Assembly (NCBI GenBank): GCA_017483945.1
Contig: JAFUUE010000034.1
Coordinates: 1 to 40,417 of the forward strand
DNA length: 40,417 bases
Reading direction: 5' to 3'
Origin: Paludibacteraceae bacterium
GTDB taxonomy: Bacteria > Bacteroidota > Bacteroidia > Bacteroidales > Paludibacteraceae
The stretch's first letter is position 1, and every line of letters starts with the position of its first letter. A program made the position numbers and the translations under genes. Positions 5,670 to 35,360 of the stretch are shown here, one piece after another. The notes beneath the pieces were generated by a model. It was not told where the DNA came from. It made no database searches and saw only the letters and a program-made list of their open reading frames with translations.

Positions 5670-6419
5670 ATGAGAAATCTCACACCCGTAACCAAGTACT
5701 TGCTGCTCGCGAACGGACTCGTCTGGTTCCTGGATGTCCTGCTCAAGCAACGCGGCATCTACCTCGCCGGATTACTCGGACTCAACTACTGGGGAGCCGA
5801 CACCTTCCATTGGTGGCAGCCCTTTACCTATATGTTCATGCACGCCGACTTCACGCATATCTTCTGCAACATGTTCGCCGTGCTCATGTTCGGCCCCGCG
5901 CTCGAGCAGGAGTGGGGCGCACGGCGCTACCTCGTTTACTACCTCCTCTGCGGACTCGGTGCCGCTTTGGTGCAGGAAGGCGTCTGGGCGCTCCAGGTCG
6001 CTTCTGTGACTTCCTCCATGGGCGCCACGGCAGCCATGGCCTATGCCAACCATGTCCTCACTATCGGTGCCAGCGGCGCTGTGTTCGGCATACTGCTCGC
6101 CTTCGGGTGGATGTTCCCCGATGTGCGCATGTTCCTCCTCTTCGTCCCCATCCCTATTCGCGCGCGCACGTTCGTATTATTATATGCAGCCTTTGAGCTC
6201 CTCGCCGGACTGGCCAATACCGCCGGAGATAATGTCGCTCACTTCGCGCACCTCGGAGGAATGCTCTTCGGCGCCGTCTGCATATGGATTTGGCAGAAAT
6301 GGGGGGACCGCCCATGGAACAGCCTCATGCAGCGCTTCCGCAAGCACTCGCGACTCGATACCACCTCCACGGACCAGCAGAACCGTTGGTCGGACTATCA
6401 CTACCAGAAGCGTACCTGA
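5670..6419 (+). CDS. Rhomboid-family intramembrane serine protease
   Basis: 249 residues with about six membrane segments. WQPFTYMFMHADFTHIFCNM is the conserved first-loop/TM2 region. GASGAVFG places the catalytic serine at Ser135, and AHLGGMLFG places the catalytic histidine at His194. Both catalytic residues are present, so it should be active; it would cleave membrane-spanning substrates within the bilayer. The C-terminal ~40 residues are a polar tail. The last codons and the TGA stop lie inside the first units of an 11-base repeat array, which is unusual. Confidence 0.92.
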   Translation: MRNLTPVTKYLLLANGLVWFLDVLLKQRGIYLAGLLGLNYWGADTFHWWQPFTYMFMHADFTHIFCNMFAVLMFGPALEQEWGARRYLVYYLLCGLGAALVQEGVWALQVASVTSSMGATAAMAYANHVLTIGASGAVFGILLAFGWMFPDVRMFLLFVPIPIRARTFVLLYAAFELLAGLANTAGDNVAHFAHLGGMLFGAVCIWIWQKWGDRPWNSLMQRFRKHSRLDTTSTDQQNRWSDYHYQKRT

Positions 6420-6510
6420 TCCCGTACCTGACCCGTACCTGGCCCGTACCTGACCGCTCCCCCAACCCGTACAAAACCCGTAGCGGAGCCGACGGTCGGC
6501 CGACGGTCGA
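6411..6510. repeat. 11-base repeat array A after the rhomboid gene
   Basis: GTACCTG recurs at 6412, 6424, 6435 and 6446 (steps 12, 11, 11), the unit being about CCCGTACCTGA. CCCGTA then recurs 11 apart (GTA at 6469 and 6480-6481), and GACGGTCG recurs 11 apart (6491 and 6502). The reverse complement of the main unit, TCAGGTACGGG, is one base from the unit of the array at 23811-23845. The stop codon of the rhomboid gene is within the array. The rest of the spacer, 6511-6640, shows no gene. Confidence 0.85.
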
Positions 6511-6643
6511 GAATACTGTCAAGGGTCTCCTCACTGACCCGCTCGGGGGCACGGGGCCTCGTCTCGGTCACAGACCGTCCCGCGATTATGCAGCCGGAAA
6601 CAGCCATCTGCACACAAAATACACCCCGTTTTGAACAATAGTG

Positions 6644-6707
6644 TTGGCAAAAAGCATATTTATTGGCCAAAAATTTGCATATCTCGCCAAAAAGTAGTAA
6701 TTTTGCA
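6644..6707 (+). promoter_or_regulatory. acpP promoter with three evenly spaced AAAAA motifs
   Basis: TTTG (6674-6677) and TAATTTTG (6698-6705), 20 bases apart, form the promoter. Overlapping it are three motif copies starting GGCAAAAA (6646), GCCAAAAA (6666) and GCCAAAAA (6686), exactly 20 bases apart; the first two continue to GCATAT. A similar copy occurs before the rhomboid gene at 5577. The layout suggests binding by an unknown regulator of the acpP-fabF genes. Confidence 0.6.
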
Positions 6708-6786
6708 CCGTAATTCGGAAATGCGCCCTCAGAGGGCACTCCCGTTGAGACAAGAAATACAATATAAACTTTAAGATAATACAACT

Positions 6787-7023
6787 ATGTCTGAAATCGA
6801 ATCTAAAGTAAAAGCCATCATCGTGGACAAACTCGGCGTTGATGACGCACAAGTAACTCCGCAGGCTTCTTTCTCGGCTGACCTCAATGCCGACAGCCTC
6901 GACACCGTTGAACTCATCATGGAGTTTGAGAAAGAGTTCAATATCTCTATCCCCGACGAGGATACGCAGAAAATCAGCACTGTAGGCGACGCTATCGCTT
7001 ACATCGAGAAGGCTATTGCCTAA
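6787..7023 (+). CDS. acpP: Acyl carrier protein
   Basis: 78 residues, the standard length, and acidic. The [13 protein letters not shown] segment carries Ser37 (in ADSLDTVE), the attachment site for 4'-phosphopantetheine. It carries the growing acyl chain in type II fatty acid synthesis. The gene lies directly upstream of fabF, as in many bacteria, with a 120-base spacer holding two hairpins. The promoter with repeated AAAAA motifs starts about 80 bases upstream. Confidence 0.97.
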
Positions 7024-7028
7024 CTGAG

Positions 7029-7084
7029 TGTTCTCTCATGGAGAACCTGTTTTACGAGTTTGCAGACCTCTGTAGGCTCGTAAA
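7029..7084 (+). promoter_or_regulatory. Two hairpins between acpP and fabF
   Basis: GTTCTC/GAGAAC folds at about 7029-7045. TTACGAG (7053-7059) pairs with CTCGTAA (7078-7084), with an inner TGCAG/CTGTA stem. There is no U-run, so these look like processing or mRNA-stability structures between two genes expressed at different levels rather than terminators. The role is inference. Confidence 0.4.
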
Positions 7085-7143
7085 TTGTAACAAGGCGAGA
7101 CCCTCGCACGCGTCTCATACGCCGAAAATATAAGGTACAGAAA

Positions 7144-8409
7144 ATGATGGATAGAATGAAGAGAGTAGTAGTCACCGGATTGGGCGCACTCACCCCGCTC
7201 GGTAACGATGTCCCCACTACGTGGGCTAACATGGTCGCCGGCGTCAGCGGATGCGCACCTATCACCGCTTTCGACGCCTCCAAGCATAAGACACAGTTCG
7301 CCTGCGAACTCAAGGGATGGGACGTCGCCGCTATGTTTGACCGCAAAGAGGCGCGCAAACTGGACCCCTATGTCCAATATACCCTCTGGGCTACACACGA
7401 AGCTATGCAGGATGCTGCGCTGGACCTCGAGCATGAGGACCGCACACGCATCGGCGTCATCTTCGGCAGCGGTATGGGAGGATTGCAGACCTTCTCCAAC
7501 GAGATGGTGGACTATGCACACGGAGACGGCACACCGCGCTTCTCCCCCTTCTTTATCCCCAAGGTTATACTCAACATGGGTGCCGGACAGGTCTCCATAC
7601 GCTATGGACTCCAAGGCCCCAGCTTCGCCGTCACGTCCGCTTGCGCCAGCTCGTCGCATGCCATCACACAGGCCTTCGACCAGATACGCCTCGGACGGGC
7701 TGATGTCATGGTCACCGGCGGCGCCGAGGCACCCGTCACGACAGGCGGTGTCGGCGGATTCAATGCCATGCACGCCCTCTCGACACGCAACGACAGCCCC
7801 GCTTCCGCATCACGACCCTTCAGTGCCTCGCGCGACGGATTCGTGATCGGCGAAGGAGCCGTCACACTCGTGCTTGAGGAGTATGACCATGCCGTCGCAC
7901 GGGGAGCGCATATCTATGCCGAACTCGTCGGAGCAGGACAGACATCCGATGCCTACCACATGACGGCCCCCGACCCCGAGAGCAAGGGCGCCGCACATGT
8001 CATGCAACTGGCTATGCTCGATGCCGGCATTGAGCCTGCTGATATTCAGCATATCAACACACACGGCACCTCCACTCCCCTCGGGGACATCGCCGAACTC
8101 AATGCTATCAAGCAGGTCTTCGGGGAGCATGCTTATGACATAAGCATCAACTCTACCAAGTCCATGACCGGACACCTCCTCGGCGCGGCCGGAGCACTCG
8201 AAGCCATGGCCTGCGTACTCGCTATACGGGACAGCATCGTGCCCCCGACCATCAACCATGACCCCGAGGACAAAGACGAGAACATCGACTATAACCTCGA
8301 CTTGACATTCAATCAGGCACGCCGCCGGGACATCACCTACGCCATGTCCAACACCTTCGGCTTTGGAGGACATAACGCATGCCTGGTCTTCAAGAAACAT
8401 AACGCATAA
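7144..8409 (+). CDS. fabF: 3-oxoacyl-[ACP] synthase II
   Basis: 421 residues. KRVVVTGLGALTPLGN opens the thiolase fold. The Cys-His-His triad is visible: Cys167 in TSACASSSHAI, His307 in NTHGTSTPLGD and His344 in GHLLGAAGALE. The late NTFGFGGHNACL segment is also characteristic. It condenses malonyl-ACP with acyl-ACP to elongate fatty acids. ATGs at 7144, 7147 and 7156 are all possible starts; the longest is given, because related proteins have a few residues before KRVVVTG. It follows acpP and precedes a small winged-helix gene by 54 bases. Confidence 0.96.
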   Translation: MMDRMKRVVVTGLGALTPLGNDVPTTWANMVAGVSGCAPITAFDASKHKTQFACELKGWDVAAMFDRKEARKLDPYVQYTLWATHEAMQDAALDLEHEDRTRIGVIFGSGMGGLQTFSNEMVDYAHGDGTPRFSPFFIPKVILNMGAGQVSIRYGLQGPSFAVTSACASSSHAITQAFDQIRLGRADVMVTGGAEAPVTTGGVGGFNAMHALSTRNDSPASASRPFSASRDGFVIGEGAVTLVLEEYDHAVARGAHIYAELVGAGQTSDAYHMTAPDPESKGAAHVMQLAMLDAGIEPADIQHINTHGTSTPLGDIAELNAIKQVFGEHAYDISINSTKSMTGHLLGAAGALEAMACVLAIRDSIVPPTINHDPEDKDENIDYNLDLTFNQARRRDITYAMSNTFGFGGHNACLVFKKHNA

Positions 8410-8463
8410 CCAAAACCATAACACAGGACTCGTTCCTGCTAACTTATTAAAGGTATTAGTATT

Positions 8464-8658
8464 ATGATTACAGCAAAAATCGGTGAGAATGCCGGAGCAA
8501 TCTGGAACGCACTGCAAGGCGGTGCACTCACAACCAAAGCGCTCAAGAAAGCAACCAAACTCAAAGAGGCTGAACTCAACCTGGCCCTCGGATGGCTCGC
8601 ACGTGAGGGAAAAGTAGCCTTCATCGAAGGCGAAGAGTTGACTATTGCCCTGCAATAA
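8464..8658 (+). CDS. Small winged helix-turn-helix protein (DUF2582-like)
   Basis: 64 residues. IGENAGAIWNALQGGALTTK, then ALKKATKLKEAELNLALGWLAREGKVAF, reads as a compact winged helix: a recognition-helix region followed by a beta hairpin (KVAFIEGEELTIAL). It matches my memory of the DUF2582 family, common in Bacteroidetes and of unknown role. It lies between fabF and asd with short gaps and the same strand, so it is probably co-transcribed. DNA binding is expected from the fold, but no target is known. Confidence 0.75.
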   Translation: MITAKIGENAGAIWNALQGGALTTKALKKATKLKEAELNLALGWLAREGKVAFIEGEELTIALQ

Positions 8659-8691
8659 TTATAACCTCTTTACTAACGCGCTGATAACAAA

Positions 8692-9705
8692 ATGGTAATA
8701 GCAATCGTGGGCGCCTCTGGTGCCGTAGGGCAGGAATTGCTCAAGGTTCTGGCAGAACGCCACTTCCCTGTTACCGAACTTCGACTATTCGGTTCCTTGC
8801 GTAGTGCAGGAACCGAATACTCTTTTCTTGACCACACCTGCACCGTGCGCCGACTCGACCACGGTGACCTCTTCCGGGGCGTCGATATAGCCTTTGTCTC
8901 GGCCGGCGCCTCTGTCTCCCGCGAATATGCGGAGGACATCACACGCTATGGGGCGGTCATGATTGACAACTCCTCGGCCTTCCGTATGGACGAGGATGTC
9001 CCCCTGGTTGTTCCCGAGGTCAATGCCGCCGACGCCCTCAATGCGCCGCGGCGCATCATCGCTAACCCCAACTGCACAACCATACAGATGGTGGTCGCCT
9101 TGGCCGCCATACAGCGCTTGTCCCCCGTACGGACTGTCCGCGTCGCTACCTACCAGGCCGCCAGCGGAGCCGGGGCACAAGCCATGAACGAACTGAAACA
9201 GCAATACAACCGGTTGGCGGCCGGTGAGACCCCCTCCGTCTCCAAGTTCCCCTTCCAACTGGCTTACAATATGATACCCCAAGTGGACGTCTTCACCGAC
9301 AACGGCTATACCAAGGAGGAGATGAAGATGTTCAACGAGACACGCAAGATACTCCACTCCGACATCGCCGTCAGTGCCACTTGCGTCCGCGTGCCCTCCC
9401 TGCGCGCCCATAGCGAGAGCATCTGGCTCCATACGGACGAACCTCTCTCCCTCGACCGGGTGCGCGAGGCGTTCCGCACAGCCCCCGGCTGCTGCCTCGT
9501 GGATAACCCGGCGGCCGTCTCACCCGAATACCCCTATCCCATGCCGCTCTTCTGCAGCGGACGCGACGAGGTCTTCGTCGGACGCGTGCGCCGCGACCTG
9601 GCTGACCCCTGCGGACTGTCCTTCTGGTGCGTGAGCGACCAGATACGCAAGGGAGCGGCCCTCAATGCCGTACAGATAGCTGAATACCTTATTCGCCGAC
9701 AATGA
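8692..9705 (+). CDS. asd: Aspartate-semialdehyde dehydrogenase
   Basis: 337 residues. [14 protein letters not shown] is the NADP-binding glycine motif at the N-terminus. [10 protein letters not shown] carries the catalytic Cys128, and the later [13 protein letters not shown] supplies the expected substrate-binding Arg/His region. It reduces aspartyl phosphate to aspartate semialdehyde, the branch point to lysine/diaminopimelate, threonine and methionine. The length fits the family. Its stop overlaps the start of the next gene by 4 bases (ATGA), suggesting translational coupling. Confidence 0.96.
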
Positions 9706-10961
9706 CTTCGTCTAACGTGGAAATAATGGCGCCCGTAGGGTGCTGGGAATCGCTCGCAGCGGCCATACAAGCCGGTGCGGACAGCGTCTATTTCGGTATA
9801 GAGCAACTCAATATGCGTGCCCGCTCGTCGGTCAATTTCACGACCGAGGACATGCACCGCATCGTCGCCCGATGCCGCGAGGCCGGGGTCAAGACCTACC
9901 TCACGCTCAATACCGTCATCTATCCCGAAGACCTCCCCCTCATGCGCGAGATAGCGGATAACGCCCTCGCTGCAGGCGTGGATGCCGTCATCGCCAGCGA
10001 TATAGCGGTCATGCAGTATGCGAACAGCATCGGGCTCGAAGTGCACCTAAGTACCCAACTCAATATCGCCAACACCGAAGCGCTGCGTTTCTATGCGCAG
10101 TTCGCGGACGTCGTCGTCCTGGCGCGGGAACTCAATATGCAGCAGGTTGCAGCTATCCGGGACGACATCCGCGACCGGCATATCCTCGGCCGGCACGGCC
10201 AACCCGTGCGTATCGAGATGTTCTGCCACGGCGCCCTCTGTATGGCGGTCAGCGGCAAGTGCTACCTCAGCCTCAATAACTACGGGACCAGTGCCAACCG
10301 CGGTGCCTGTGTACAGGTGTGCCGGCGAGGCTACACCGTGCGTGACAAGTCCTCCGACCTCGAACTGGACATCGACAACCAGTACATCATGTCCCCCAAA
10401 GACCTGAAGACCATCCACTTCCTCAACAAGATGCTGGACGCCGGCGTGCGCGTGCTCAAGATTGAGGGACGGGCACGAGGACCTGAGTACGTGCAGACGG
10501 TCGTCTCCTGCTACCGCGAAGCGGTGCAGGCATGGGAGAACGGTGAGTACGACTCGCCCGCCATCGACGCACGTATAGCCGACTGGAACGAGCGCCTCGC
10601 CCGCGTCTTCAACCGCGGATTCTGGGACGGATGGTACCAGGGACAGCGGCTCGGCGAATGGACACACACCTACGGCAGCCAGGCTACGCGCCGCAAACTG
10701 TATGCCGGCAAGTGCACCAACTTCTACTCCCGCCTCTCCGTGGCGGAGTTCGCCCTCGAGGCCGTGCCGGACATACGGCTCGGCGACACGCTCCTCATCA
10801 CCGGCGAGACAACCGGTGCCTACGAGACAGTCGTGCGCGAACTGCACGGGCCGGACGGCACCCCCTGCGACACGGTCGCACAAGGACAACTCTTCGCCGT
10901 CAAGACCGACCGCGTCATCCGGCGGGGAGACAAACTATACAAACTCGTGGCCGATGAATGA
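9702..10961 (+). CDS. Peptidase U32-family protein (YegQ/TrhP-like)
   Basis: 419 residues. The opening [26 protein letters not shown] and the [13 protein letters not shown] region are typical of U32 proteins. The core signature [18 protein letters not shown] holds Cys175, Cys180 and Cys187, followed by Cys203 and Cys207; cysteines in this region bind an iron-sulfur cluster in the relatives UbiU/UbiV. Family members take part in tRNA or rRNA hydroxylation rather than proteolysis (TrhP, RlhA). Which applies here cannot be told from sequence; the ~420-residue length fits the TrhP-like group better than the long RlhA type. It overlaps both neighbours by a few bases. Confidence 0.85.
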
Positions 10962-11601
10962 GTTGCTGCGCATATCGTCCCCCGTGTCCGAGCCTTGGAC
11001 GGCTTGGGTCATGCTTGCGCTGCTCATCTGCCTGCTCTGGGCGGCTCAACGCCAGCATGGTCTCTTCCTGCAGGCCTGCAACGCCGTCTTCGGCTCAACC
11101 CGACGTGCCTACAACGACGTCACCACCGACACCTTGTCGCTCCTGCTGACCGACCTGTTCACCTGCGGCAGTGTGGCACTGACCGTCATGATGACCGTGC
11201 GCGACGAGCAGCCCTTCCTCCTGCGTACCTACGGGCTCACGCTGCTCCTCGTCCTCGCGGCGATGTTCCTGAGCAACTTGCTCACATGGCTCCTGAACTA
11301 TGTCTTCCGCTTCGACCGCAACAGCGGCGAAGAGCCCGTGCGCCTCTCCGGACGCCTCGCTTTCCTCGCCGCCTTCCTTTGTTATCCGCTCACGATGCTT
11401 GCCGTGCAATTAGGCATGAGCCGCGCACTCCTCATCATCCTGTGCGTCATCGCCGCCGCATGGCTCATCCTGCTGATGACCAAAGCTATACAACGATATA
11501 CCGCACAACCCCGGCATGTCGCATATGCCCTCATCTATGTGCTGACGGTGCATATGCTGCCCTTGCTCGCGGTGCTCTATGCCGCCCAACACTTCGCATA
11601 A
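10954..11601 (+). CDS. DUF4271-type integral membrane protein
   Basis: 215 residues from the ATG at 10954, which overlaps the U32 gene by 8 bases; the open frame extends upstream, but only inside that gene. Six hydrophobic segments are visible, beginning about residues 18, 55, 85, 132, 158 and 188. Family placement rests on the topology and on the neighbour: in Bacteroidetes a DUF4271 protein commonly precedes the uroporphyrinogen-III synthase-like gene, as here. The function is unknown; a role in heme or envelope metabolism is only suggested by position. Confidence 0.75.
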   Translation: MNELLRISSPVSEPWTAWVMLALLICLLWAAQRQHGLFLQACNAVFGSTRRAYNDVTTDTLSLLLTDLFTCGSVALTVMMTVRDEQPFLLRTYGLTLLLVLAAMFLSNLLTWLLNYVFRFDRNSGEEPVRLSGRLAFLAAFLCYPLTMLAVQLGMSRALLIILCVIAAAWLILLMTKAIQRYTAQPRHVAYALIYVLTVHMLPLLAVLYAAQHFA

Positions 11602-11615
11602 ACTACACAAACAGA

Positions 11616-12362: not shown

Positions 12363-12739
12363 CCCCGACAGCCGAGCGGCAACATACCTTCCCCAAACGG
12401 GAGCACCTGTGCGGCAAGATGCGCATAGCGGCTCTCTATGAGCACGGCCGGCGCTTCACGGCATGGCCGCTGCGGGTGACCTATGCCCCCGCCGGTGACG
12501 ACAGCACGCAAGTGCTCGTCTGGGCACCAAAGAGCCTCTTCCGTCATGCCGTGCAGCGCAACCGCCTGCGCAGGCAGATGCGGGAGGCTTACCGCCTGAA
12601 CAAGCAACTGCTGGCCGCTCCCTGCCATGTCGCCTTCAACTATATCGACAAGGCCCCGCAGCCCTATCGCACCATCGAACGGGCGATGCAGAAGGCACTC
12701 GCCAGGATACAGACCGAACAAAACACCACCCGCCCATGA
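12359..12739 (+). CDS. rnpA: Ribonuclease P protein component
   Basis: 126 residues from the ATG overlapping the hemD stop. The N-terminus has [20 protein letters not shown], and the RNR motif region [19 protein letters not shown] lies at about residues 65-83; both are standard for RnpA. It binds the catalytic RNase P RNA and helps mature tRNA 5' ends. yidD follows with a 4-base overlap, the common rnpA-yidD pair, but no rpmH is nearby. Confidence 0.95.
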
Positions 12740-12963: not shown

Positions 12964-12965
12964 TA

Positions 12966-13007
12966 TTGAATCTTGAATCTTAAATCTTAAATCTCAAATC
13001 TTGAATC
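12966..13007. repeat. Six 7-base repeats between yidD and trmD
   Basis: Six head-to-tail heptamers (TTGAATC, TTGAATC, TTAAATC, TTAAATC, TCAAATC, TTGAATC) fill the spacer from 3 bases after the yidD stop to 9 bases before the trmD ATG. Unlike the other arrays here, the period is 7. Confidence 0.9.
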
Positions 13008-13016
13008 CCCAAGAGC

Positions 13017-13715
13017 ATGCGTATCGACATCATCACTGCTTGTCCCGAACTGTTGGACAGCCCGCTCAATCACTCTATCGTCCAACGTGCCAAGGACAAA
13101 GGACTGGCTGAGATATATATCCATAACCTGCGCGACTACACCCTCGACAAACACCGCAAGGTGGACGACTACGCCTTCGGCTTCGGGGCGGGGATGGTGC
13201 TGCAGATAGAGCCTATCGACCGCGTTATCACCAAGTTGACTTCGGAGCGGCACTACGACGAAATCATCTTCACCGCCCCCGACGGCGAGCGCTTCACCCA
13301 ACGCGAAGCCAACCGCCTCTCTATGGCGCAGAATATCATCATCCTCTGCGGCCACTACAAGGGCGTGGACCAGCGTGTCCGCGACCACCTGATTACCCGC
13401 GAGTACAGCATCGGCGACTTCGTGCTCACCGGCGGCGAGATGCCGGCGGCCATCATGACCGATGCTATCGTGCGCCTGCTGCCCGGTGCGCTCGGCGATG
13501 AGACGAGTGCCCTCTCCGACTCCTTCCAAGACGGCCTGCTCGAGGCGGGAGTCTATACCCGCCCCGCGGAGTACAAGGGATGGCGCGTGCCCGACATCCT
13601 CCTCTCCGGCCACCAGGCCAAGATAGAGGAGTGGCTCTACGACCAGTCCCTCCAACACACCCGCGAGCGTCGTCCCGACCTCCTCACCGACTCCCCAACC
13701 GATACACCCAGGTAA
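13017..13715 (+). CDS. trmD: tRNA (guanine-N1-)-methyltransferase
   Basis: 232 residues, standard length. [53 protein letters not shown] and [15 protein letters not shown] are the TrmD signatures, the last two forming the knotted S-adenosylmethionine pocket. The protein ends with the [11 protein letters not shown] region and a short tail. It methylates G37 of certain tRNAs and prevents frameshifting. The TAA stop is formed within the first unit of an 11-base repeat array. Confidence 0.96.
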
Positions 13716-13754
13716 CGGTCAGGTAACGATCAGGTAACGGTCAGGTAACGATCG
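13711..13754. repeat. 11-base repeat array B overlapping the trmD stop
   Basis: GGTAACG recurs at 13711, 13722, 13733 and 13744, exactly 11 apart; the unit is TCAGGTAACGG or TCAGGTAACGA. The first unit supplies the TAA stop of trmD (13713-13715). The array runs straight into the 98-base element. Confidence 0.95.
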
Positions 13755-13849
13755 CGTTCGGCAAGACGCTCGCACTTGCTGCCGCTCTGCGGCATCGGGC
13801 TCGGTCTGCCTCCGCTCTCCGAAAAACTTCCTTGCAGGAACTTTTTCGG
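13752..13849 (+). repeat. 98-base hairpin element (copy 1)
   Basis: It matches the reverse complement of 23644-23741 over 98 bases with one mismatch (13767). It contains GCCGC/GCGGC (13781-13793) and ends in the hairpin CCGAAAAA...TTTTTCGG (13819-13849), with a C/C mismatch and a TTCC/GGAA inner stem as at 228-259. It is flanked by 11-base arrays. No coding sequence. Confidence 0.95.
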
Positions 13850-13913
13850 TTTGTTTAAGGTTTCCCTAACGAACCTGGAACAGACCTGGAACAGACCTGG
13901 AACAGAGCTGACC
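13848..13913. repeat. 11-base repeat array C
   Basis: In 11-base frames from 13848: GGTTTGTTTAA, GGTTTCCCTAA, CGAACCTGGAA, CAGACCTGGAA, CAGACCTGGAA, CAGAGCTGACC. The unit changes but the phase is kept. The end (CTGACCCTGT) matches the end of the array at 23743-23780, so the two are related. Confidence 0.9.
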
Positions 13914-17854: not shown

Positions 17855-17942
17855 GAATCACTAAAGAATCACTAAAGAATCACTAAAGAATCACCTAAGA
17901 ATCACCTAAGATTGATAGGGGTTTGACGGGTGGGATAATCCT
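17855..17942. repeat. 11-base repeat array D
   Basis: GAATCA recurs at 17855, 17866, 17877, 17888 and 17899, exactly 11 apart, followed by GATTGATAGGG at 17910 and GTTTGACGGGT at 17921. Units are GAATCACTAAA, later GAATCACCTAA. Read on the other strand the unit contains GTGATT, as does the second half of the array at 35195-35360. Confidence 0.95.
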
Positions 17943-23643: not shown

Positions 23644-23741
23644 CCGAAAAAGTTCCTGCAAGGAAGTTTTTCGGAGAGCGGAGGCAGACCGAGCCCGATG
23701 CCGCAGAGCGGCAGCAAGTGCGAGGGTCTTGCCGAACGCGA
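23644..23741 (-). repeat. 98-base hairpin element (copy 2, inverted)
   Basis: Reverse complement of 13752-13849 with a single mismatch. The hairpin part is at 23644-23674. It starts 36 bases after the kinase stop and abuts an 11-base array at its other end. Confidence 0.95.
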
Positions 23742-23845
23742 AACGAAGCTGGAACGAAGCTGGAACGAACCTGACCCTGTCATTGCCCTAAGAATCAGCG
23801 GAATCCACCCTTCAGGTTCGGGTCAGGTTCGGGTCAGGTTCGGGA
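23742..23845. repeat. 11-base repeat arrays E and F before the lyase gene
   Basis: AACGAAGC/AACGAACC recurs at 23742, 23753 and 23764, ending CTGACCCTGT as array C does. A second array has CAGGTTCGGG at 23813, 23824 and 23835 (unit TCAGGTTCGGG), close to array B and to the reverse complement of array A. It ends about 20 bases before the lyase ATG. I see no TAnnTTTG promoter here. Confidence 0.9.
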
Positions 23846-23866
23846 AACGCTACACATATCCTACCC

Positions 23867-27094: not shown

Positions 27095-27096
27095 GA

Positions 27097-27816: not shown

Positions 27817-27836
27817 ATAATGTAGTTGTTTTTTGT

Positions 27837-27864
27837 GCAGCCTGCGCCCGTGGGCACAGGCTGC
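27837..27864. other. Hairpin between the OmpA-family gene and the YebC-type gene
   Basis: GCAGCCTG (27837-27844) pairs with CAGGCTGC (27857-27864), with an inner GCC/GGC. There is no U-run on the minus strand, so it may be an intercistronic stability element or a weak terminator. Confidence 0.45.
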
Positions 27865-27882
27865 GTTGGTTGTTATTGTTGT

Positions 27883-30489
27883 TTATTGGTTGTCTTGTTG
27901 CGGTTGGATACTGTCGGTCGGCACGACTTGCTCTGCCGGGTCGGCATGGTCATAGATGGTCTCGATATGTACCTCCTCGAAGGTGATGTCGAACTCTACG
28001 CGGCGGTTCAGCGCACGTCCCTTGGCGGTCTTGTTGTCCGCTATCGGGCGCTCCATGCCATAGCCGTTAGCGGTCATACGCTCCGGCTCGACACCCTTCT
28101 TAATCAGGTACTCGCGGACGGCTTTGGCTCGCCGGTCGCTCAGTGCCTTGTTCAGGTCGGCCTTGCCCACATTGTCGGTGTGGCCTTGTACCTCGATGAT
28201 ATAGCTCGGGTTGTCGATGAAGGTCTGGGCTATCTGGTCGAGCAGCGGATAGGATGCCGGTTTGATAGTGGCCTTGCCGGTCTCGAACTGGATACCCTGC
28301 ATAGCTTTCTTGAGCAGGTTGCGTACCTCGCGTTTCACCTCGGGACAGCCCTTGTTCATCTTGCTGCCGGGGACAGTCGGGCACTCGTCCTTGTAGTCGG
28401 GCACACCGTCGCCGTCTGTATCCAGGTCGCAGCCGTGTGCGTCCACATAGCCGATAGCGGCCGCCTTGGTGTCGGGGCACTCGTCCATGTAGTCGGGCAC
28501 ACCGTCCTTGTCCGAGTCAAGCGGACAGCCCTTCTCATCGATATAGCCGCGCGCCTCTGCCGGAGTGTCGGGGCATTCGTCCATGTAGTCGGCCACGCCG
28601 TCGCCGTCCGAGTCAAGCGGGCAGCCCTTCTCGTCCACATGACCGCGTGCCTCTGCCGGTGTGTTGGGACACTCGTCCATGTAGTCGGCTACACCGTCGC
28701 CGTCCGTATCCAGCGGGCAGCCATACTCGTCGATATAGCCGATAGCGGCTGCCGGCGTGTTCGCACACTTGTCCATGTAGTCAGGCACACCGTCGCCGTC
28801 CGTGTCGATGGGGCAACCCACCGAGTCCACCAGACCATAGGCTTTCGCCGGTGTACCGGGGCACTGGTCTAAGTAGTCGGGTACACCGTCTCCGTCCGTG
28901 TCCAGCGGGCAGCCCATGCGGTCCACACGTACATTACGCGGGGTGCGGGGGCATACGTCGAACTTATCCAGTACACCGTCTTTGTCGGAGTCTTTCTTGT
29001 GGTTGGTTCCCCAGACGATGCTCACGCCCATAGCCAGATTCATACCCTTGGCCTTGTAGGGGAGGAGGTACCGTTGCTTACCGCTGTTGTCGTAGTCTAT
29101 CGGGGCATACGATGTGGGGATATAGTCCATAGCGAGGGTCAGGTTGATACCGTCGTAGGGCATCAGGCTCAGACCGGCGCCGATATTGCTGTACTTACCG
29201 TTCTCCAGCAGCGAGTAGCTGACGGCCAGGTTGAACCAGTTGCACGGACGTATCGCGCCGCCGATGGTCACCTCGCCGTATATCTGCCCGTTGTACAGGC
29301 GTCCTTGTCCCAGAATGCCGATGCCGAGGATGTTGTTGCAGAAGTTGGCATCGACGCCCACATTCAGCTTGGCATTCATCATGCGTAGCATTCCGCCGGG
29401 CACGGACTCTGCATGCATCGCATCCAGCAGCCCCTCTGCATTGCGGCCCACATCGTTGAGCAGACTGTCGGTGTCAAACTGTCCGTTCACCACATAGTGG
29501 TCGTAGGTGAAGTCGCCCACGCCGACGAAGGTCGTGTCTATGTGTGCTTTGTAGCGCGCGGTGCTGTTCCAGTAGATAACACCCAAGTCCGTCACGGCGG
29601 CACTAATCTGCACCTGCTTGTGCGGCTTATAGGTGAAGCCCAGGTCGATGGCTCCGCCGTAGCCGGCCGGCTTGGCGTAATCAGCCCAGGTCAGGCCGCT
29701 CTTCATCAACTTGGTGGAGTCTATGTCCTGGAGTGTCTGGTAGTCCAGTCTCGCAGGCAGGACCGACTTGTCAATGACGTCCGGGGCCGAGACGAAGATG
29801 TCACTCTCGCCGTACAGACGCCACTCCGAAGCCGAGGCATCCAGTTGGAGCGACGACGGGCGGAAACCTGCATAAGCCTGTCCCAGAATGAGCTTGAGTT
29901 TGCCGCCGACGGTCCACTGGTCGTTGATGCGGTGGGAGTAGCCGCCGCCTATCTCGGTGTAGGCCGTGGCGTTCATGCCCAGTGCCGTGAGGTTGAATCG
30001 GTTGACACCGCCGTTGAGGTCATGCATGCCCCCACCCAGCAGAAAGTCGAACATCGGCTTCGGCAGACTCAGGCCCGCGTCCATATGTTCCATGATGTTG
30101 ATGTTCACATAGCCCTTCTCCTTCACGCGGAAGCCGAAGCTCAGCAGGTTAATCTGCATCTGGCTGCCGATGAGCGTCGAGTTGCGGAATGCTCCTAACA
30201 GCTTGGCGGGGTCGGCGTTCGGGTGGATGGCGGTGATGGTCTTGCCCGTGAGCGGGTCTCGATATATCAGGTCGCTCATGGTCAGTGAGTTATTGCCTGC
30301 CTGCATGCTGGTGTAACCGATGATGGGCAGCATGATATAGCCGTCGCTGACCGGTTGTAATGCCGGGTTGATGATAGGACGTATCGGGGCGTTCTCCAGG
30401 AAATAGAGAGTATTCACCTGTTGTGCCTGTGCGCTGAGTATGCACATCGCGCATAGCAGCGAAAGGATATAGATACGAATCTGTTTCAT
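27883..30489 (-). CDS. Outer-membrane barrel with calcium repeats and OmpA domain
   Basis: 868 residues. A signal peptide ends AQAQ. Residues about 24-490 look like a Bacteroidetes beta-barrel of the DUF5723 or PorP-like kind (MKQIRIY..., PALQPVSDGYIMLPIIGY). Residues about 497-715 hold seven thrombospondin type 3 repeats (DTDGDGVPDYMDECP-type) in 32-residue steps. Residues about 722-840 are an OmpA domain with GHTDNVGKADLNKALSDRRA, which binds peptidoglycan. It should link the outer membrane to the cell wall. It is the last gene of the minus-strand surface operon. The barrel family assignment is less sure than the other domains. Confidence 0.88.
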   Translation of the reverse strand: MKQIRIYILSLLCAMCILSAQAQQVNTLYFLENAPIRPIINPALQPVSDGYIMLPIIGYTSMQAGNNSLTMSDLIYRDPLTGKTITAIHPNADPAKLLGAFRNSTLIGSQMQINLLSFGFRVKEKGYVNINIMEHMDAGLSLPKPMFDFLLGGGMHDLNGGVNRFNLTALGMNATAYTEIGGGYSHRINDQWTVGGKLKLILGQAYAGFRPSSLQLDASASEWRLYGESDIFVSAPDVIDKSVLPARLDYQTLQDIDSTKLMKSGLTWADYAKPAGYGGAIDLGFTYKPHKQVQISAAVTDLGVIYWNSTARYKAHIDTTFVGVGDFTYDHYVVNGQFDTDSLLNDVGRNAEGLLDAMHAESVPGGMLRMMNAKLNVGVDANFCNNILGIGILGQGRLYNGQIYGEVTIGGAIRPCNWFNLAVSYSLLENGKYSNIGAGLSLMPYDGINLTLAMDYIPTSYAPIDYDNSGKQRYLLPYKAKGMNLAMGVSIVWGTNHKKDSDKDGVLDKFDVCPRTPRNVRVDRMGCPLDTDGDGVPDYLDQCPGTPAKAYGLVDSVGCPIDTDGDGVPDYMDKCANTPAAAIGYIDEYGCPLDTDGDGVADYMDECPNTPAEARGHVDEKGCPLDSDGDGVADYMDECPDTPAEARGYIDEKGCPLDSDKDGVPDYMDECPDTKAAAIGYVDAHGCDLDTDGDGVPDYKDECPTVPGSKMNKGCPEVKREVRNLLKKAMQGIQFETGKATIKPASYPLLDQIAQTFIDNPSYIIEVQGHTDNVGKADLNKALSDRRAKAVREYLIKKGVEPERMTANGYGMERPIADNKTAKGRALNRRVEFDITFEEVHIETIYDHADPAEQVVPTDSIQPQQDNQ
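28378..28992 (-). repeat. Tandem 96-base coding repeats (thrombospondin type 3)
   Basis: Seven in-gene units, mostly 32 codons each, encode D(T/S)D(G/K)DGV(P/A)DYxD(E/Q/K)CP plus a GCPL spacer. The high DNA similarity between units could allow change in unit number by recombination. Confidence 0.85.
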
Positions 30490-30515
30490 AGTGATAATCT
30501 TTTGCTCAGGTGAAT

Positions 30516-32315
30516 TTATTTATTTTGGTTCGCTATTTTGTCTAAGTTGAGTATGGCATCCACGTTGGCTGCGATGCCGATGCGTACGCGCACGCTGGTA
30601 GTGGTGTCGAGCACGCAGGGCTGCGGGTTGCCGGTGATGGCGGCATCCAGACGGATAGCCTTAATCTCAGCAAAGCGGTCGAAGTCGTTCTTCTCCACAT
30701 CCACTATCAGCACCGTCTTCGACGGTTCGGACACGTAGCCGTATTTCTGGCCGGCGGGGCGAATCATCGTCGGGGCGGGGAAGTGAAGACGGTTGCTGTC
30801 GTTGTCCTGAACGAGTTGCAGGTGCATGTCGGCGCTGTCCTTGTCCAGGAAGGTGAACACGCCTTCTATGTCAAACGGGATGGAGTTCTCCACCTGCAGG
30901 AACAGCTTCAGGTTGCTCGTCTTCAAGGTGTCTAATATCTCGGATTCTGCCATCAGGGAGTCCAGCGTGAAGCTGCTCAGGTCCACGTCCTTGATGGTCA
31001 TGCTGTACGCCAACTCGGTGCCCTCGTTGAACTTGAAGGGGACATCCACCATCGCATAGCCGTGCACCTTGGTGTCCTTGGTGATACGGTGCTGCTTCCA
31101 CGGGTAGTCGCTACGCGGGTTCTGGTCCACGAGCAGGTGGAAACTGTAGTTGAAGCTGTCGGGACGCACATCGAAGAGCCGGTCCAAGTGCCCCTCATGC
31201 TCCAGGTAGGAGAAGCGTCTGTGGTTATAGACGCTGTCGTTGAGGGTGCTGATTTCCGGCGAGAGCGAGTTCTCCAGCGCAAAGTCCGTCTTGTCTTTGC
31301 CTTCCCATGTGGCTTTGGTCTCATGTCCGGTCGAGTCCACGGCGGACAGGTAGTCGATATACATACGCAGCGGAGCGGCCACGCGGTGCGATACATACAC
31401 ATCCACTATCGGCTCCGCAAAGCGGACCTTCAGTTTCTTAATCTTCTTCCACTCGTCCCACAGGCTGTCCATGTCCAGATGCTGCGCGTCGCGCATCTCA
31501 TTGCCGGCTTGGAACCAACCCCAGATGGCCTCATAGTCTATCACTTTCACCTGCAGGTTGTAGGCGAAGGCACTCTCGTCGCTCACGTTGATGACGTGAC
31601 CGTCCGCCGGGCAGACGTTGAACAGAATGCGGAACTTAATCTTGCTCACCGTGCCTGCTTCCGGGTTGGTGTTGTCCTTCATGAGGCTCAGCGAGAAGTC
31701 GTTCACGTCGATGGGGATGTCGCGGTTGTAGCCCTTGCCGCTGATGGGGATGTTGATGGTCTTCCCATCACCGCGGCGGAACTGGTCACCCAACTCCAGT
31801 TGTACGCTCTGAATCTCGTCCCATGTCAGTCCGAAGTCTGTCACGTTAATCATACTGATGAACTGGGCTTCCGACACGTGGATGCTGTCGATACGCTCCT
31901 GGGTCGTGTTGTTGTTGATGCCCTGCATGCCCAGCTCCAGGTCGAACACCAGAGTGATGACCGTATGCCCGTCGCCCGTAATCACGCTGCGGTCGTCGAT
32001 AGCCGGCTTGATTTTGAAACTCAGTGTCGTCTCATCCTTGATGACATAGCTCGCGACATCTATCTTACGGTAGTTCTTCGTCGGTATCTCCACCCGGCTC
32101 GTGAAGTGATAGATGCCGTCCTCGCCCACCGAAATCTGTTCGATGGTGCTGTCGCCGAGGAAGTCTCCCATCTTGGCAGACATGCTGCCGACGGGAATAG
32201 CCAGACCCATGCGCACTTCCGCCGCTGGGTCGATGTTTTGCACGTCGATGTCCGCGTGGCAGGCTGTCAGCAGCACCGCCGCAAGCATCGTAGCAATGAA
32301 GGTGATTTTTCTCAT
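30516..32315 (-). CDS. Predicted lipoprotein of unknown function
   Basis: 599 residues. The signal ends LLTAC, giving Cys19. I do not recognise a domain. The body alternates short strands (VEIPTKNYRKIDVASYVIKDETTLSFKI, KVIDYEAIWGWFQ) and looks like a beta-rich, extended extracytoplasmic protein. It sits between the LRR gene (41 bases upstream) and the OmpA-family barrel (26 bases downstream) on the same strand, so all three are probably one transcript. The pairing suggests it is a surface or periplasmic partner of the barrel. Confidence 0.8.
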   Translation of the reverse strand: MRKITFIATMLAAVLLTACHADIDVQNIDPAAEVRMGLAIPVGSMSAKMGDFLGDSTIEQISVGEDGIYHFTSRVEIPTKNYRKIDVASYVIKDETTLSFKIKPAIDDRSVITGDGHTVITLVFDLELGMQGINNNTTQERIDSIHVSEAQFISMINVTDFGLTWDEIQSVQLELGDQFRRGDGKTINIPISGKGYNRDIPIDVNDFSLSLMKDNTNPEAGTVSKIKFRILFNVCPADGHVINVSDESAFAYNLQVKVIDYEAIWGWFQAGNEMRDAQHLDMDSLWDEWKKIKKLKVRFAEPIVDVYVSHRVAAPLRMYIDYLSAVDSTGHETKATWEGKDKTDFALENSLSPEISTLNDSVYNHRRFSYLEHEGHLDRLFDVRPDSFNYSFHLLVDQNPRSDYPWKQHRITKDTKVHGYAMVDVPFKFNEGTELAYSMTIKDVDLSSFTLDSLMAESEILDTLKTSNLKLFLQVENSIPFDIEGVFTFLDKDSADMHLQLVQDNDSNRLHFPAPTMIRPAGQKYGYVSEPSKTVLIVDVEKNDFDRFAEIKAIRLDAAITGNPQPCVLDTTTSVRVRIGIAANVDAILNLDKIANQNK

Positions 32316-32356
32316 ATAATTAGTTGAATTTTAGTAGTTGTTCTCCTCTGTGGGGC

Positions 32357-35080
32357 CTACAGTCGCTTGCCTGTAGCGCTGTAGCGTATGCCGTGGCGCA
32401 CGATGACCGGGCGCCCGTCCTCGATATATTTGCCGTCCGGCCGGTGGCTCTCGGCGGCTGCGGATTCGATGCCGAGTGTTTGTCCGGTGCGGAAAGTGCC
32501 GTGGTATTCGCCTATCCAGTGCTCGTGATGTTCCTCGTTCCACACGGTCATCCGGTATTGGTACTCGGTGTCGGGGAGCAGGCCGATGACGGTGTAGGTG
32601 TAGATGGTGGTCTTGTCCTGCTTGCCGGGAGCCATACGCGGCGTCGGCGCATCGAAACGCACGGTGCGCAGCGTGCCGTCCTCGACGTTGAACGACAGCG
32701 AAGTGACGGTGTCACCCTCTGCCAGAATGATGTCCAGACGGAAGTAGTCGGCCGCTTCGGCGGGACTGCTGAAGTTATACCAACTGAACTGTGCCGTGTT
32801 GGTCCCGGGGATGACCTGCACGTTGCCGAAGCTGTTCCCCGTGCTCAACTCGGCCGACAGGGTGGCAAGACCGAACTCGCCCCAGTACTCATGCTGGCGG
32901 TAGTCGGGGAGCATGTCTGAGTAGGCATGTATCACTGCCGTACGGCTGACGTTGCGTAGCGGCTCGTCTTCGGCGCATACCTCCGGCACCGTCTCAGCAT
33001 AGCTGTAGATATGTCCGAGTGCCGCGCAGTCGGACAGCGCTCCGGCGTCCAGATAGCGCATGCTCGTGCCCAACGTCACCGTGCGCAGCGAGTCGCAGCC
33101 GGCGAAGACATGTGCGTGGAGCGTGTCTATCGGGTGCGGCAGGAGCACAAAGGTCAGTCCGCTCTCGGCGAAAGCTGTCGGCTCTATCGTGGTCAGCACG
33201 GAGGGCAGGGTGATGGAGGTCAGTCTCGCGGCTCCGGCGAACGCCTCTTCGGCCACCACTACCACCGTGTCAGGCAGTGTATAGGTGCCCTCACGCGTCA
33301 GCGGATACTGCAGCAACGTGCGGGTGTCGTAGTCGTAAAGCACGCCGTTCAGCGCGCGGTAGGCGCGGTTGCCCGTCGCCACGCGGAAACTGCGGATGCT
33401 GTCGCAACGGCTGAAAGCGCGGCGCCCGATATAGGTCACTCCCGACGGGATAAGCATGTCCGTCAGGCTGTTGCAACGGTAGAAAGCGGCAGCGCCGATA
33501 TAGGTCAGGCTGTCGGGTAGGGCAAAGGAGACCAGGCTGTCGCAGGTGGCGAACGCGCCGGCACCGATGCGTTGTACCTCCGTGGGCATAGCCACGCTGC
33601 GCAGACGCTTGCAACCGAGGAAGAGACTGTCGCTCAGGATACGTACCTGTTGCGGCAGGCTGAACTCGGTCAAGGCGGTGCAGCCCGCAAAGCAGCGGGC
33701 TCCGACGGCGCTTACACTTTGCGGCAGGGGGAGAGCCGGCAGGGCGATGCAGTCGCGGAAAGCGTCGGCACCTATCTGCTCCACCGGTCGCGGAAGCGTG
33801 ACGGAGGTCAGTCCTGTGCAACCGGCACAGAGACGGTCCGGCAGAACGGTCAGACCGCTCGGTAACTGTATAGTTGTCAGCCCGGTGCATCCGGCAAAGG
33901 CACCTGCGCCTATCTCGCTGAGGCTGTTGGGTAGTTGTATATCGGTCAGCCCCGTGCAGCCGCAGAAGGCCTCGGCGCCGATAGTCGTAACTTCCTCGGG
34001 CAGAGTGATATGGTCCGGCTCCGTCATGCCGTAGCACAGGTAGGCGGGGATGACCTCAACCTCGTCGCTGAAGGTGAACGTGCGCAGTTGGCCGCGCAGG
34101 TGATACCACGGGGACGCGGCGGCGGACGCGGCGGACGGGTAGCGGATAGCGCTCCACTGCACCTCCTCCAGGGCGCTGCAGCCGTCGAAAGCATACGGAC
34201 TGATGGCGTCCATGTCGAAGCCGATGCGCACTTGTGTCAGGGCAGTGCAGTCGCCCAGTGCGTACTCGTCGATGGAGGTGACGCGCTTGCCGGTGTAGAA
34301 CGTGGTCAGCGCGGTGCATTTCTCGAAAGCATGTGCGCCGATAGCCGTGACGCTGTTCGGCAGACTGATGTCGCTCAGTGCCGTACAGCCGCTGAACATG
34401 TCGGGCGATATGGCGCGCAGACGGGCGCTCAAGGTCACGGAACGCAGCCCCGTGCAGGACTGGAAAATGCCTTGCCCGCAGGCCGTCACCGAACCGGGTA
34501 ACTCGATGGATGTCAGTTGGCTCATGCCGTAGCATAGCCATGCCGGCAGTTCCCGCACTCCGTCGCCGATGCGCAGCGACTCGATGTCGGCGCGCTGGCC
34601 GTAGAAAGGTGCGTTGCGCCGCGCGGAGGGAGAGGCGCAGACCGCTGCGTTCCACTGCACATGACGGAGCGCGTTGCAGTCCTGAAAAGCGTCCTGACCG
34701 ATGGCCGCTACGGACAAACCAATGGTCAGCGAGTCGATGGCGGAGCACTCCAGAAAAGCGTAGTCGCCGATGGTGGTGACACTGTCAGGGATGACTACGC
34801 GGCGGATATGGTCGAGACCGAAAAAAGCATAGGTGCCGACGGTGGTCAGGTCGTCGGGCAGACGGAGCGTGTCTATCTGACTGCGGTAGTCCCACCACGG
34901 AGCATCGGCTTCGGGGTAGTCGGACATCGCACCACGACCGCTGATAGTCAGCGTGTGACCGGCCGTGTCCAGCGTATAGGACAACTCCTCACCGCACGTG
35001 CCTACGATGAGGTCTGCACGCGCATCAAGAATAGGGCACACCAAAAGGGTGCTCAATAGGAGGGAGAACAACTGTTTCAT
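32357..35080 (-). CDS. BspA-type leucine-rich-repeat surface protein
   Basis: 907 residues. A signal peptide ends about DARA. Residues about 40-740 carry many LRR_5 (Treponema/BspA) repeats of about 23 residues with the pattern ...VTTIGDYAFLECSAIDSLTI. Residues about 765-870 look like a fibronectin type III-like domain (TTIYTYTVIGLLPDTEYQYRMTVW). The end (KYIEDGRPVIVRHGIRYSATGKRL) is a short C-terminal motif seen in secreted proteins of this phylum. Related proteins bind host proteins or other bacteria. It is the first gene of the operon and shares its promoter module with the exopolysaccharide operon. Confidence 0.9.
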   Translation of the reverse strand: MKQLFSLLLSTLLVCPILDARADLIVGTCGEELSYTLDTAGHTLTISGRGAMSDYPEADAPWWDYRSQIDTLRLPDDLTTVGTYAFFGLDHIRRVVIPDSVTTIGDYAFLECSAIDSLTIGLSVAAIGQDAFQDCNALRHVQWNAAVCASPSARRNAPFYGQRADIESLRIGDGVRELPAWLCYGMSQLTSIELPGSVTACGQGIFQSCTGLRSVTLSARLRAISPDMFSGCTALSDISLPNSVTAIGAHAFEKCTALTTFYTGKRVTSIDEYALGDCTALTQVRIGFDMDAISPYAFDGCSALEEVQWSAIRYPSAASAAASPWYHLRGQLRTFTFSDEVEVIPAYLCYGMTEPDHITLPEEVTTIGAEAFCGCTGLTDIQLPNSLSEIGAGAFAGCTGLTTIQLPSGLTVLPDRLCAGCTGLTSVTLPRPVEQIGADAFRDCIALPALPLPQSVSAVGARCFAGCTALTEFSLPQQVRILSDSLFLGCKRLRSVAMPTEVQRIGAGAFATCDSLVSFALPDSLTYIGAAAFYRCNSLTDMLIPSGVTYIGRRAFSRCDSIRSFRVATGNRAYRALNGVLYDYDTRTLLQYPLTREGTYTLPDTVVVVAEEAFAGAARLTSITLPSVLTTIEPTAFAESGLTFVLLPHPIDTLHAHVFAGCDSLRTVTLGTSMRYLDAGALSDCAALGHIYSYAETVPEVCAEDEPLRNVSRTAVIHAYSDMLPDYRQHEYWGEFGLATLSAELSTGNSFGNVQVIPGTNTAQFSWYNFSSPAEAADYFRLDIILAEGDTVTSLSFNVEDGTLRTVRFDAPTPRMAPGKQDKTTIYTYTVIGLLPDTEYQYRMTVWNEEHHEHWIGEYHGTFRTGQTLGIESAAAESHRPDGKYIEDGRPVIVRHGIRYSATGKRL

Positions 35081-35142
35081 AGTCTTTCTTTATTTGAGAC
35101 GCGCTCTTCCGTGTCTGGGAATCTGCGTCTTCCGTATTCGCG

Positions 35143-35204
35143 TGCAAAGGTACAAAAAAAAAAGGACATACGCAATAGGAATAGACATTTTTTAACAATC
35201 CCCC
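35143..35204 (-). promoter_or_regulatory. Promoter module of the surface-protein operon
   Basis: On the minus strand, TACCTTTG (35145-35152) is preceded after 20 bases by TTG (35173-35175). The read from GGGGGATTG through TTAAAAAATG, CTATTGCGTATGTCC, a T-run and CTTTGCACGC aligns with 18181-18248 with only a few differences and a 2-base gap. The 11-base array starts at its upstream end. Confidence 0.85.
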
Positions 35205-35360
35205 GTACAATCCCCATACAATCCCCATACAATACCTATGCTATTCCTGTATAAATCCCTATTCTATCACCGATACAAACCCGTACCGTTCTCGCGTGAT
35301 TGTCGCGTGATTGTCGCGTGATTGACGCGTGATTCGCCTACCTCTGCCCATACTATCACC
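35195..35360. repeat. Long drifting 11-base array G
   Basis: From 35207 the sequence divides into 11-base steps: ACAATCCCCAT twice, ACAATACCTAT, GCTATTCCTGT, ATAAATCCCTA, TTCTATCACCG, ATACAAACCCG, TACCGTTCTCG, CGTGATTGTCG twice, CGTGATTGACG, CGTGATTCGCC, TACCTCTGCCC and ATACTATCACC. The phase is kept while the unit changes from ACAATCCCCAT to CGTGATTGTCG. The first ACAATC (35195) is 12 bases before the second. The minus-strand read gives ATGGGGATTGT units leading into the promoter. The remaining 35361-35475 shows nothing else. Confidence 0.9.

Follow-up and report, generated by a model that had tools for sequence, protein, structure and literature searches.

Intergenic tandem arrays with a preferred step, 11 bases in a Paludibacteraceae genome and mostly 7, 8 or 11 in its relatives

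The window, by which we mean the whole stretch of DNA analysed (40,417 bp, G000:C43:1-40417), belongs to the genome of a rumen-type Bacteroidales bacterium, the source genome, of 1.99 Mb in 93 contigs. Among its genes are a rhomboid gene, yidD, trmD and a gene for a 907-aa BspA-type leucine-rich repeat protein (Pfam LRR_5; 32357-35080), in whose upstream divergent spacer lie two arrays of short tandem repeats. Further arrays occupy other spacers (Table 1). The array at 6411 begins shortly before the rhomboid gene ends and overlaps its stop codon, and the array at 13709 reaches 7 bp into the end of trmD. Within an ORF on the minus strand (27883-30489), a 96-bp unit is repeated in tandem (5.6 copies, 28379-28915). 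The REP-like dispersed repeat, both copies of which lie beside arrays, carries the hairpin CCGAAAAACTTCCTTGCAGGAACTTTTTCGG, and a palindromic, GC-rich repeat, GACGCGGGCGGCTCGCCCGCG, is found repeatedly in other spacers of the source genome.

Table 1. Arrays and dispersed repeats in the window, with the period-11 rows returned by Tandem Repeats Finder (TRF)
Feature	Position	Strand	Family or remark	TRF row
Array, unit CCCGTACCTGA, 4 copies	6411..6455	+	Family A; one indel by TRF	6411-6455
Other words continuing the 6411 array: AACCCGTACAA/AACCCGTAGCG pair (by eye), then GCCGACGGTCG x2 at 6488-6509	6456..6510	+		6488-6509
Period-7 array TTGAATC/TTAAATC	12966..13001	+	yidD-trmD spacer	
Array TCAGGTAACGG/TCAGGTAACGA, ABAB, 22-bp double unit	13709..13753	+	Family A	13709-13750
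REP-like dispersed repeat between two arrays	13752..13849	+	Second copy 23644-23741, opposite strand, 99% identity	
Array AACAGACCTGG, 3.5 copies	13873..13910	+	Family A	13873-13910
Array GAATCACTAAA x3, then GAATCACCTAA x2	17855..17911	+	Family B	17855-17905/17911
REP-like dispersed repeat adjoining the array at 23742	23644..23741	-		
Right array of composite, CAGCTTCGTTC	23742..23773	-	Family A	23742-23773
34-bp core of composite, between inverted arrays	23778..23811	-	Family A	
Left array of composite, CCCGAACCTGA x3	23812..23844	-	Family A	23812-23844
Array ACAATCCCCAT, 3.5 copies	35195..35233	+	Divergent spacer	35195-35233
Array TCGCGTGATTG, 3.9 copies	35292..35334	+	Family recurs at L114:3650 and L116:6538	35292-35334

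The first-pass annotation had reported at least six spacers with an 11-base period, and period-11 arrays are present in all six that it listed, nine arrays in total. An independent array scorer (match +1, mismatch -3, cut-off 13 in the window), run over periods 4-40, found eight arrays at period 11, four at 22, which is twice 11, one each at 7, 12, 14 and 30, and none at the other periods. The borders given earlier stand only in part: the array placed in 13848-13913 begins at 13873, and the stretches 23742-23845 and 35195-35360 each consist of two arrays, separated by a stretch that neither program calls periodic. The kinship that had been noted between the units at 6411, 13711 and 23811 is real.

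The sample of the source genome comprised the window and 20 further stretches, 430,170 bp in all, with genes and spacers defined by a simple script-based gene caller. The 20 stretches were chosen on contigs with earlier array matches, and the density of arrays on them was 0.167 per kb, against 0.198 per kb in the window. At a cut-off of 15, 73 arrays were found at period 11, compared with 11 at 7, 10 at 10 and two each at 9 and 12. Scaled from 430 kb to the full 1.99 Mb, the 73 arrays would correspond to about 340. The period-11 arrays are largely intergenic, with 68 of the 73 in spacers, which make up 15% of the sample. When period 11 is set against its neighbours and against shuffled spacers, as the first-pass annotation had proposed, the excess is clear. 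Spacers hold 68 arrays at period 11, as against 10 at period 10, seven at 7, two at 12, one at 9 and none at 13, with zero to two at each remaining period from 5 to 19 (and three, six and six at the longer periods 20, 22 and 30). In the 161 spacers that separate called genes and measure 40 bp or more, 66 period-11 arrays were observed, whereas 50 rounds of order-1 shuffling, spacer by spacer, gave a mean of 0.02 and a maximum of one; order-2 shuffles of the whole sample gave no period-11 array in five rounds out of five. An exact 8-mer is repeated at lag 11 in 48 of the 144 spacers of at least 60 bp, compared with 12 at lag 10 and four at lag 12. Bacterial short tandem repeats are usually put down to slippage of arbitrary words; here about one-third of the sampled spacers carry an 8-mer repeated at one step. 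Chance, composition or an assembly artefact is almost certainly not the explanation, given the near absence of period-11 arrays from shuffled spacers, the recurrence of arrays in many separate assemblies and the modest length of the arrays themselves, the longest at period 11 in the source genome being 89 bp.

No gene context is clearly preferred by the arrays of the source genome. In spacers of 60-1000 bp (59 arrays), tandem spacers hold 1.57 arrays per kb, divergent spacers 1.14 and convergent spacers 1.99, and in tandem spacers the distance to the upstream stop shows no preference (9 of 38 period-11 arrays within 40 bp, with 8.2 expected). Mean G+C in the sample is 0.53 for period-11 arrays and 0.32 for period-7 arrays.

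Copy numbers are low: about three copies are present in 44 of the 73 arrays, four in 16, five or more in 11 and two in only two, a cut-off of 15 leaving out most two-copy arrays. When the cut-off is lowered, two-copy arrays are still scarce in the source genome (16 arrays at score 9-14 versus 68 at 15 or more), and the same split in the relatives described below gave a less odd ratio, 37 versus 27, before background. The units themselves are diverse. Together, those of the source genome and the genus fall into 26 families (at most two mismatches, single linkage). Taken separately, and with rotation and strand allowed, the source genome has 15 families at up to two mismatches and 11 at up to three, and the period-11 units of the other genus samples have 17 and nine. 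No cryptic motif common to the families of the source genome and the genus emerged (4.84 bits, against a shuffle mean of 4.98, with 47 of 60 shuffles as high or higher). With 26 unit families and no shared motif, the earlier remark that the period varies less than the sequence holds. The largest family in the source genome has ACCTG or its complement, found in 41 of the 73 consensus units. Within arrays, copy identity is 0.95 between neighbours and drops to 0.89, 0.76 and 0.70 at distances of two, three and four units, a fall that is partly built in, since the detector compares neighbouring copies.

Taken together, the arrays point to a process that makes or keeps repeats and that holds the step more faithfully than the words. 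We read them as lineage-specific intergenic short minisatellites, grown by local whole-unit duplication at a preferred step, and put the probability of this reading at roughly 0.45. A short spacer word would be duplicated beside itself by one fixed-length step (11 bases here; 7 or 8 in several relatives), and later gains and losses would be of whole units, so that an array would grow, shrink and drift in sequence whilst its step stayed unchanged. Arrays would largely be kept out of genes because an 11-base step would shift the frame, and some would also be copied around the genome within a composite dispersed repeat, that of family A. The generator, we infer, is duplication by slippage or unequal exchange, with the step set by machinery and not by selection. 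Whole-unit duplication would account for the constant step within each array, for the ABAB array at 13709, which is a perfect duplication of a 22-bp double unit, for the drift along arrays and for a 33-bp difference between two sister species. The concentration of spacer arrays at period 11, the 26 families without a shared motif, the lack of a clear preference among tandem, divergent and convergent spacers and the drop of copy identity with distance are all consistent with it, and slippage has already been proposed in the cited parts of the literature on 5-11-base repeats (PMC4679880, PMC4692102). However, a peak at 11 beside next to nothing at 9, 12 or 13 is not what plain slippage would be expected to give, and the choice of 11 (or of 7 or 8) is left unaccounted for. 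A process that gives birth to arrays should also leave many with two copies, and these are scarce in the source genome. Neither NHEJ nor loss of mismatch repair was retained as a cause: Ku was found in 0 of 25 genomes, and MutS domain III in 25 of 25.

The sample of relatives took in 46 TrmD loci from the genus and 100 kb from each of five genomes within it. As the genus we took the 46 loci closest by TrmD among those found (L009-L054, 81-92% identity), most of them from MAGs with the title Paludibacteraceae or Bacteroidales and many of rumen or gut origin; L055-L088 (69-78%) were placed outside it, a split that is inferred from TrmD identity. The genus TrmD loci contain 32, 7 and 15 spacer arrays at periods 7, 8 and 11, respectively. 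The corresponding counts in the five genomes are 14, 2 and 0 (G014), 1, 0 and 4 (G002), 0, 0 and 4 (G010), 4, 1 and 2 (G006) and 1, 1 and 0 (G016). The counts are again peaked, and the preferred step differs within the genus, being mostly 7, 8 or 11. Outside the genus, 34 TrmD loci (146 kb of spacer) and 20 stretches from other families of the order (67 kb of spacer) gave no spacer array at period 11, seven at 7 and two at 8. Two sister species add a further step: G169 (L053) has seven spacer arrays at period 11 and two at period 9, and G170 (L054; sample loci L215-L234) has ten of each. The equal counts at 9 and 11 in G170 speak against a simple step rule and count against the duplication reading. 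At L200:4285-4544, two period-8 arrays in inverted orientation, ACTTTCAC and GTGTGAAA, are separated by about 200 bp and have a period-11 array next to them.

These comparisons bear on the first-pass suggestion of a constant 11-base step of an unfamiliar kind. That 11 dominates the source genome is borne out, but relatives use 7 and 8, and repeats of 5-11 bases are already a described class. Long simple sequence repeats with 5-11-base units (LSSR5-11; Mrazek 2007, cited in PMC4679880) are known from prokaryotes, the 7-base unit being the commonest in most genomes, and the excess of 7, slippage and an explanation by polymerase contact are described in the cited portions of PMC4679880 and PMC4692102. 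The arrays of the source genome likewise have tandem units of 5-11 bases beyond chance and, as in this class for units that are not multiples of three, are mainly non-coding (68 of 73 in spacers); arrays of this class are scattered over species, as here. As to variation in unit number by slippage, between the two sister species described below one array differs by three units and another is unchanged. Unlike LSSR5-11 as the cited text presents them, the source genome is dominated by 11 with almost nothing at 9 or 12, its arrays are short, with a mode of three copies, the words drift along an array at constant step, and one orthologous spacer holds different arrays in different species. Heptameric intergenic repeats, GGGGA(T/C)T, GGGAATC and TAACTGA, are described from cyanobacteria, Xanthomonas and Beggiatoaceae, with TAACTGA sets in five Bacteroidetes, two of the sets being in Paludibacter propionicigenes (PMC4679880, PMC4692102). 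They too are mostly intergenic, head-to-tail and variable in copy number. In the parts of those accounts cited, however, they are single 7-base words, whereas here there are many words, mostly of 11 bases.

That orthologous spacer, between yidD and trmD, was scored in 41 of 47 loci (two lacked a recognised yidD end and four were under 20 bp), with lengths of 22-139 bp and a median of 44 bp. In 27 of the 41 species the highest tandem score that it reaches at any period from 4 to 14 exceeds that of base shuffles (p<0.05, uncorrected), where about two would be expected. Best periods in these 27 species are 7 (nine), 8 (eight), 14 (four), 10 (two), 11 (two), 9 (one) and 6 (one), and the words differ. 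Because periods and words differ across species, the spacer seems to have been filled repeatedly with new arrays, a turnover in line with local duplication, and it offers a natural test bed for the birth of arrays. Elsewhere, orthology by gene pairs gave an array in the relative in one of 47 comparisons made with array-less spacers of the source genome, the array-bearing spacers of that genome yielding zero comparisons.

G169 and G170 are about 90% identical where they can be aligned. The first-pass annotation had named absence from orthologous spacers of close strains as a refuting result; in this pair of sister species the arrays give a mixed picture, three being present in both and one in just one. 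One orthologous array is longer in G169, by exactly 33 bp or three units, than it is in G170, as duplication of whole units would produce; the flanks next to it are closely similar. Another is identical in the two species, although the surrounding noncoding DNA is 90% identical. A third spacer keeps CGATG at the 11-base step whilst the rest differs (by eye, with synteny on one side), and a weaker array (score 14) is present in L054 and absent from L053. In 5,442 aligned noncoding bases of the pair there was no tandem-type indel of four or more bases; with one array unchanged as well, duplication, if it is the generator, would not be fast.

Some arrays form part of a larger unit. The family A composite consists of an inverted pair of arrays round a core, and its copy in the window (23735-23849) lies on the minus strand. 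At 14 places recovered by a regular expression, the core is 34 bp long in ten, 45 bp in three and 67 bp in one, all of them 1 modulo 11; some of these places are a single element read on both strands or in nested form, and extra array units may be counted in the longer cores. A gapless alignment of 115 columns is obtained for nine elements chosen for a 34-bp core. In the units of their right arm, CAG....GTT are the sole invariant positions. A count of variability by column with a loose cut-off drew in 57 of the 73 arrays, unrelated ones included, and was set aside. We count the recurring core length and the gapless alignment in favour of the duplication reading. RNA structure, which the first-pass annotation had offered as a possible basis of the arrays, finds no backing: none of 14 predicted pairs in the nine elements covaries with changes on both sides, and Rfam gave no match in the window at the gathering cut-off.

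The composite also brings in a different reading, in which the arrays would belong to the interior of a small number of dispersed MITE- or REP-like elements, with 11 simply the unit length of an ancestor. MITEs are marked by terminal inverted repeats, target-site duplication and empty sites, and the family A composite has inverted arrays round its 34-bp core. Common descent would fit this recurring core, the frequency of ACCTG or its complement in the units, the REP-like repeats that adjoin several arrays of the source genome and a 108-bp stretch of G170, containing one array, that matches three places in G169 over its full length at 80-87% and several more over shorter lengths. Porphyromonas gingivalis is a member of Bacteroidales. 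Its BrickBuilt element, a minisatellite inside a MITE, likewise places intergenic tandem units within a dispersed element (PMC4596501); as set out in the cited part of that paper, it has a 23-base unit and a leader and tail with small inverted-repeat ends, whereas here the units are of 11 bases and many arrays have no surrounding element that we could see. Given these many arrays without a visible composite, period 11 in all 15 families of the source genome and 17 of other genus samples and the use of other words at periods 7 and 8, we consider descent from a few elements improbable as a general explanation. Its case is not helped by the single match to a Y1-transposase domain (34.6 bits) in the source genome, and dispersal of the RAYT type was set aside. 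A survey of prokaryotic satellites describes transposition of non-coding satellites as rare (PMC6749651, in the part cited). A phage origin was also rejected, as exact doubled words occurred in one, zero and zero stretches of viral contigs for two family A words and the family B word. The viral stretch in question, with an exact doubled AACAGACCTGG, is L235:622-643 (IMGVR_UViG_3300021962_006418).

A step of 11 bases is close to one turn of the helix, and two explanations make use of this. The first is selection for curvature phased with negatively supercoiled DNA, at about 11 bp per turn. Our curvature model takes the Bolshoy wedge values as input, and in it the predicted curvature of random units at a step of 10 or 11 exceeds that at 6 or 7 by a factor of more than ten. 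A bias recurring about every 11 bp is, moreover, called characteristic of bacterial genomes in the cited part of PMC4132750. However, selected bending was rejected, for in the same wedge model the real units are no more curved than shuffled ones (percentile 0.51 in the source genome, 0.37 in the genus). In addition, 10 should serve about as well as 11 and yet is rarer, and periods 7 and 8 are left unaccounted for. We regard curvature as a very improbable cause.

The second is that the arrays are helically phased, each unit being a putative protein site one turn (11 bp) from the next, so that the sites would lie on the same face; this, the main rival of the duplication reading and one of the first-pass suggestions, we hold to be possible, if on the doubtful side. 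Three or four such sites would be needed for cooperative binding, positions outside a core would be free to vary, and periods 7 and 8 might reflect other proteins or another packing. Precedents are available. The sites of CarH consist of three or four tandem repeats of 11 bp with a loose core, nnnnTnnACAn (PMC9304148), ParR of R1 needs at least two 11-bp repeats and ParR of pB171 binds two 10-bp repeats (PMC9426499), and omega sites consist of 7-10 consecutive 7-bp WATCACW repeats (PMC9499535). The arrays resemble CarH operators, the parC sites of R1 and pB171 and the omega parS sites in step and copy number and, in two families, perhaps also in a layout of core plus freer positions (R1 parC, according to the cited text, is split in two regions). 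They differ in that, going by the same portions of text, each of those systems has its established protein and occupies one or a few loci, whereas here 73 arrays with many words are found in about one-fifth of a chromosome.

Family B allows the putative sites to be looked at more closely. Its doubled unit, GAATCACTAAA, was found with up to two mismatches in 38 of 178 genus genomes, the source genome included, and matched 27 times in the source genome; a reversed control pattern had few matches. Among 393 order-wide genomes it was found in two besides the source genome, with one match each. Among the matches listed, 91 distinct genome-unit pairs from 30 genomes, which are related, show 92 differences, distributed over columns 1-11 as 16, 0, 0, 2, 18, 4, 1, 12, 7, 0 and 32, a contrast that was noticed post hoc. 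Variation thus falls mostly on columns 1, 5, 8, 9 and 11 and never on 2, 3 or 10, which hints at constraint on the unit. The persistence of the unit in so many genomes, with such uneven columns, hints at selection and is a point against duplication as the whole explanation; it would suit bound proteins, as would the fit of the family B word AATCACT to the omega consensus and the preponderance of three and four copies. A similar layout is seen in the CGATG family of G169 and G170 (eight arrays, 12 unit types), in which column 2 is always T and columns 5-7 are always GAT, with columns 1, 3 and 9-11 variable, and in which, as noted, an orthologous spacer keeps CGATG; the invariant CAG....GTT of the family A right arm is of the same kind.

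There is, however, no core common to all families, and 26 families without a common motif would need many proteins. The indifference of the arrays to gene context tells against binding as well, as does the orthologous spacer that has a different period and word in different species. Arrays of the CarH, ParR and omega type lie at the promoter or centromere of their own system. The family B neighbours that were scanned (one per array, for 10 of 18 listed arrays) share no function or system; they comprise a MocA-like oxidoreductase, a pseudouridine synthase, a TonB-dependent receptor, EPSP synthase, EngA, diacylglycerol kinase, an EcoRI-type methylase, TonB and two without a Pfam match. At three loci (L133, L240, L243) a family B array lies upstream of one gene without a Pfam match. 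A stronger version, which we judge unlikely, would make the arrays of the genus putative chromosome-wide, helically phased landing sites, with proteins bound to one core per 11 bp at hundreds of intergenic positions and the fast-changing cores renewed by whole-unit duplication. If true, such landing arrays would parallel, in bacteria, the satellite arrays that evolve fast together with the proteins that bind them. Duplication and binding may also act together, the former creating arrays and the latter retaining some of them.

Among the open-access matches listed, we recognised no account of such period-11 arrays. What appears new is that 11 dominates with its neighbours nearly absent, that species within a single genus differ in their preferred step, that family A forms a composite and that the same orthologous spacer seems to have been filled more than once. 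The arrays make it testable whether the length of a bacterial repeat unit is set by the copying machinery or by a protein with one site per turn, and with 178 genomes of the genus the preferred step can be correlated with machinery.

A separate class of arrays in the source genome steps by 10 bases. Its ten spacer arrays (L099, L102, L108, L110, L112, L114, L117 and L118) reach up to 289 bp, with words such as TTTAAAATGG, GTTTAGAATC and CCATCTTAAA, and their variation, judged by eye, is largely between C and T and between A and G.
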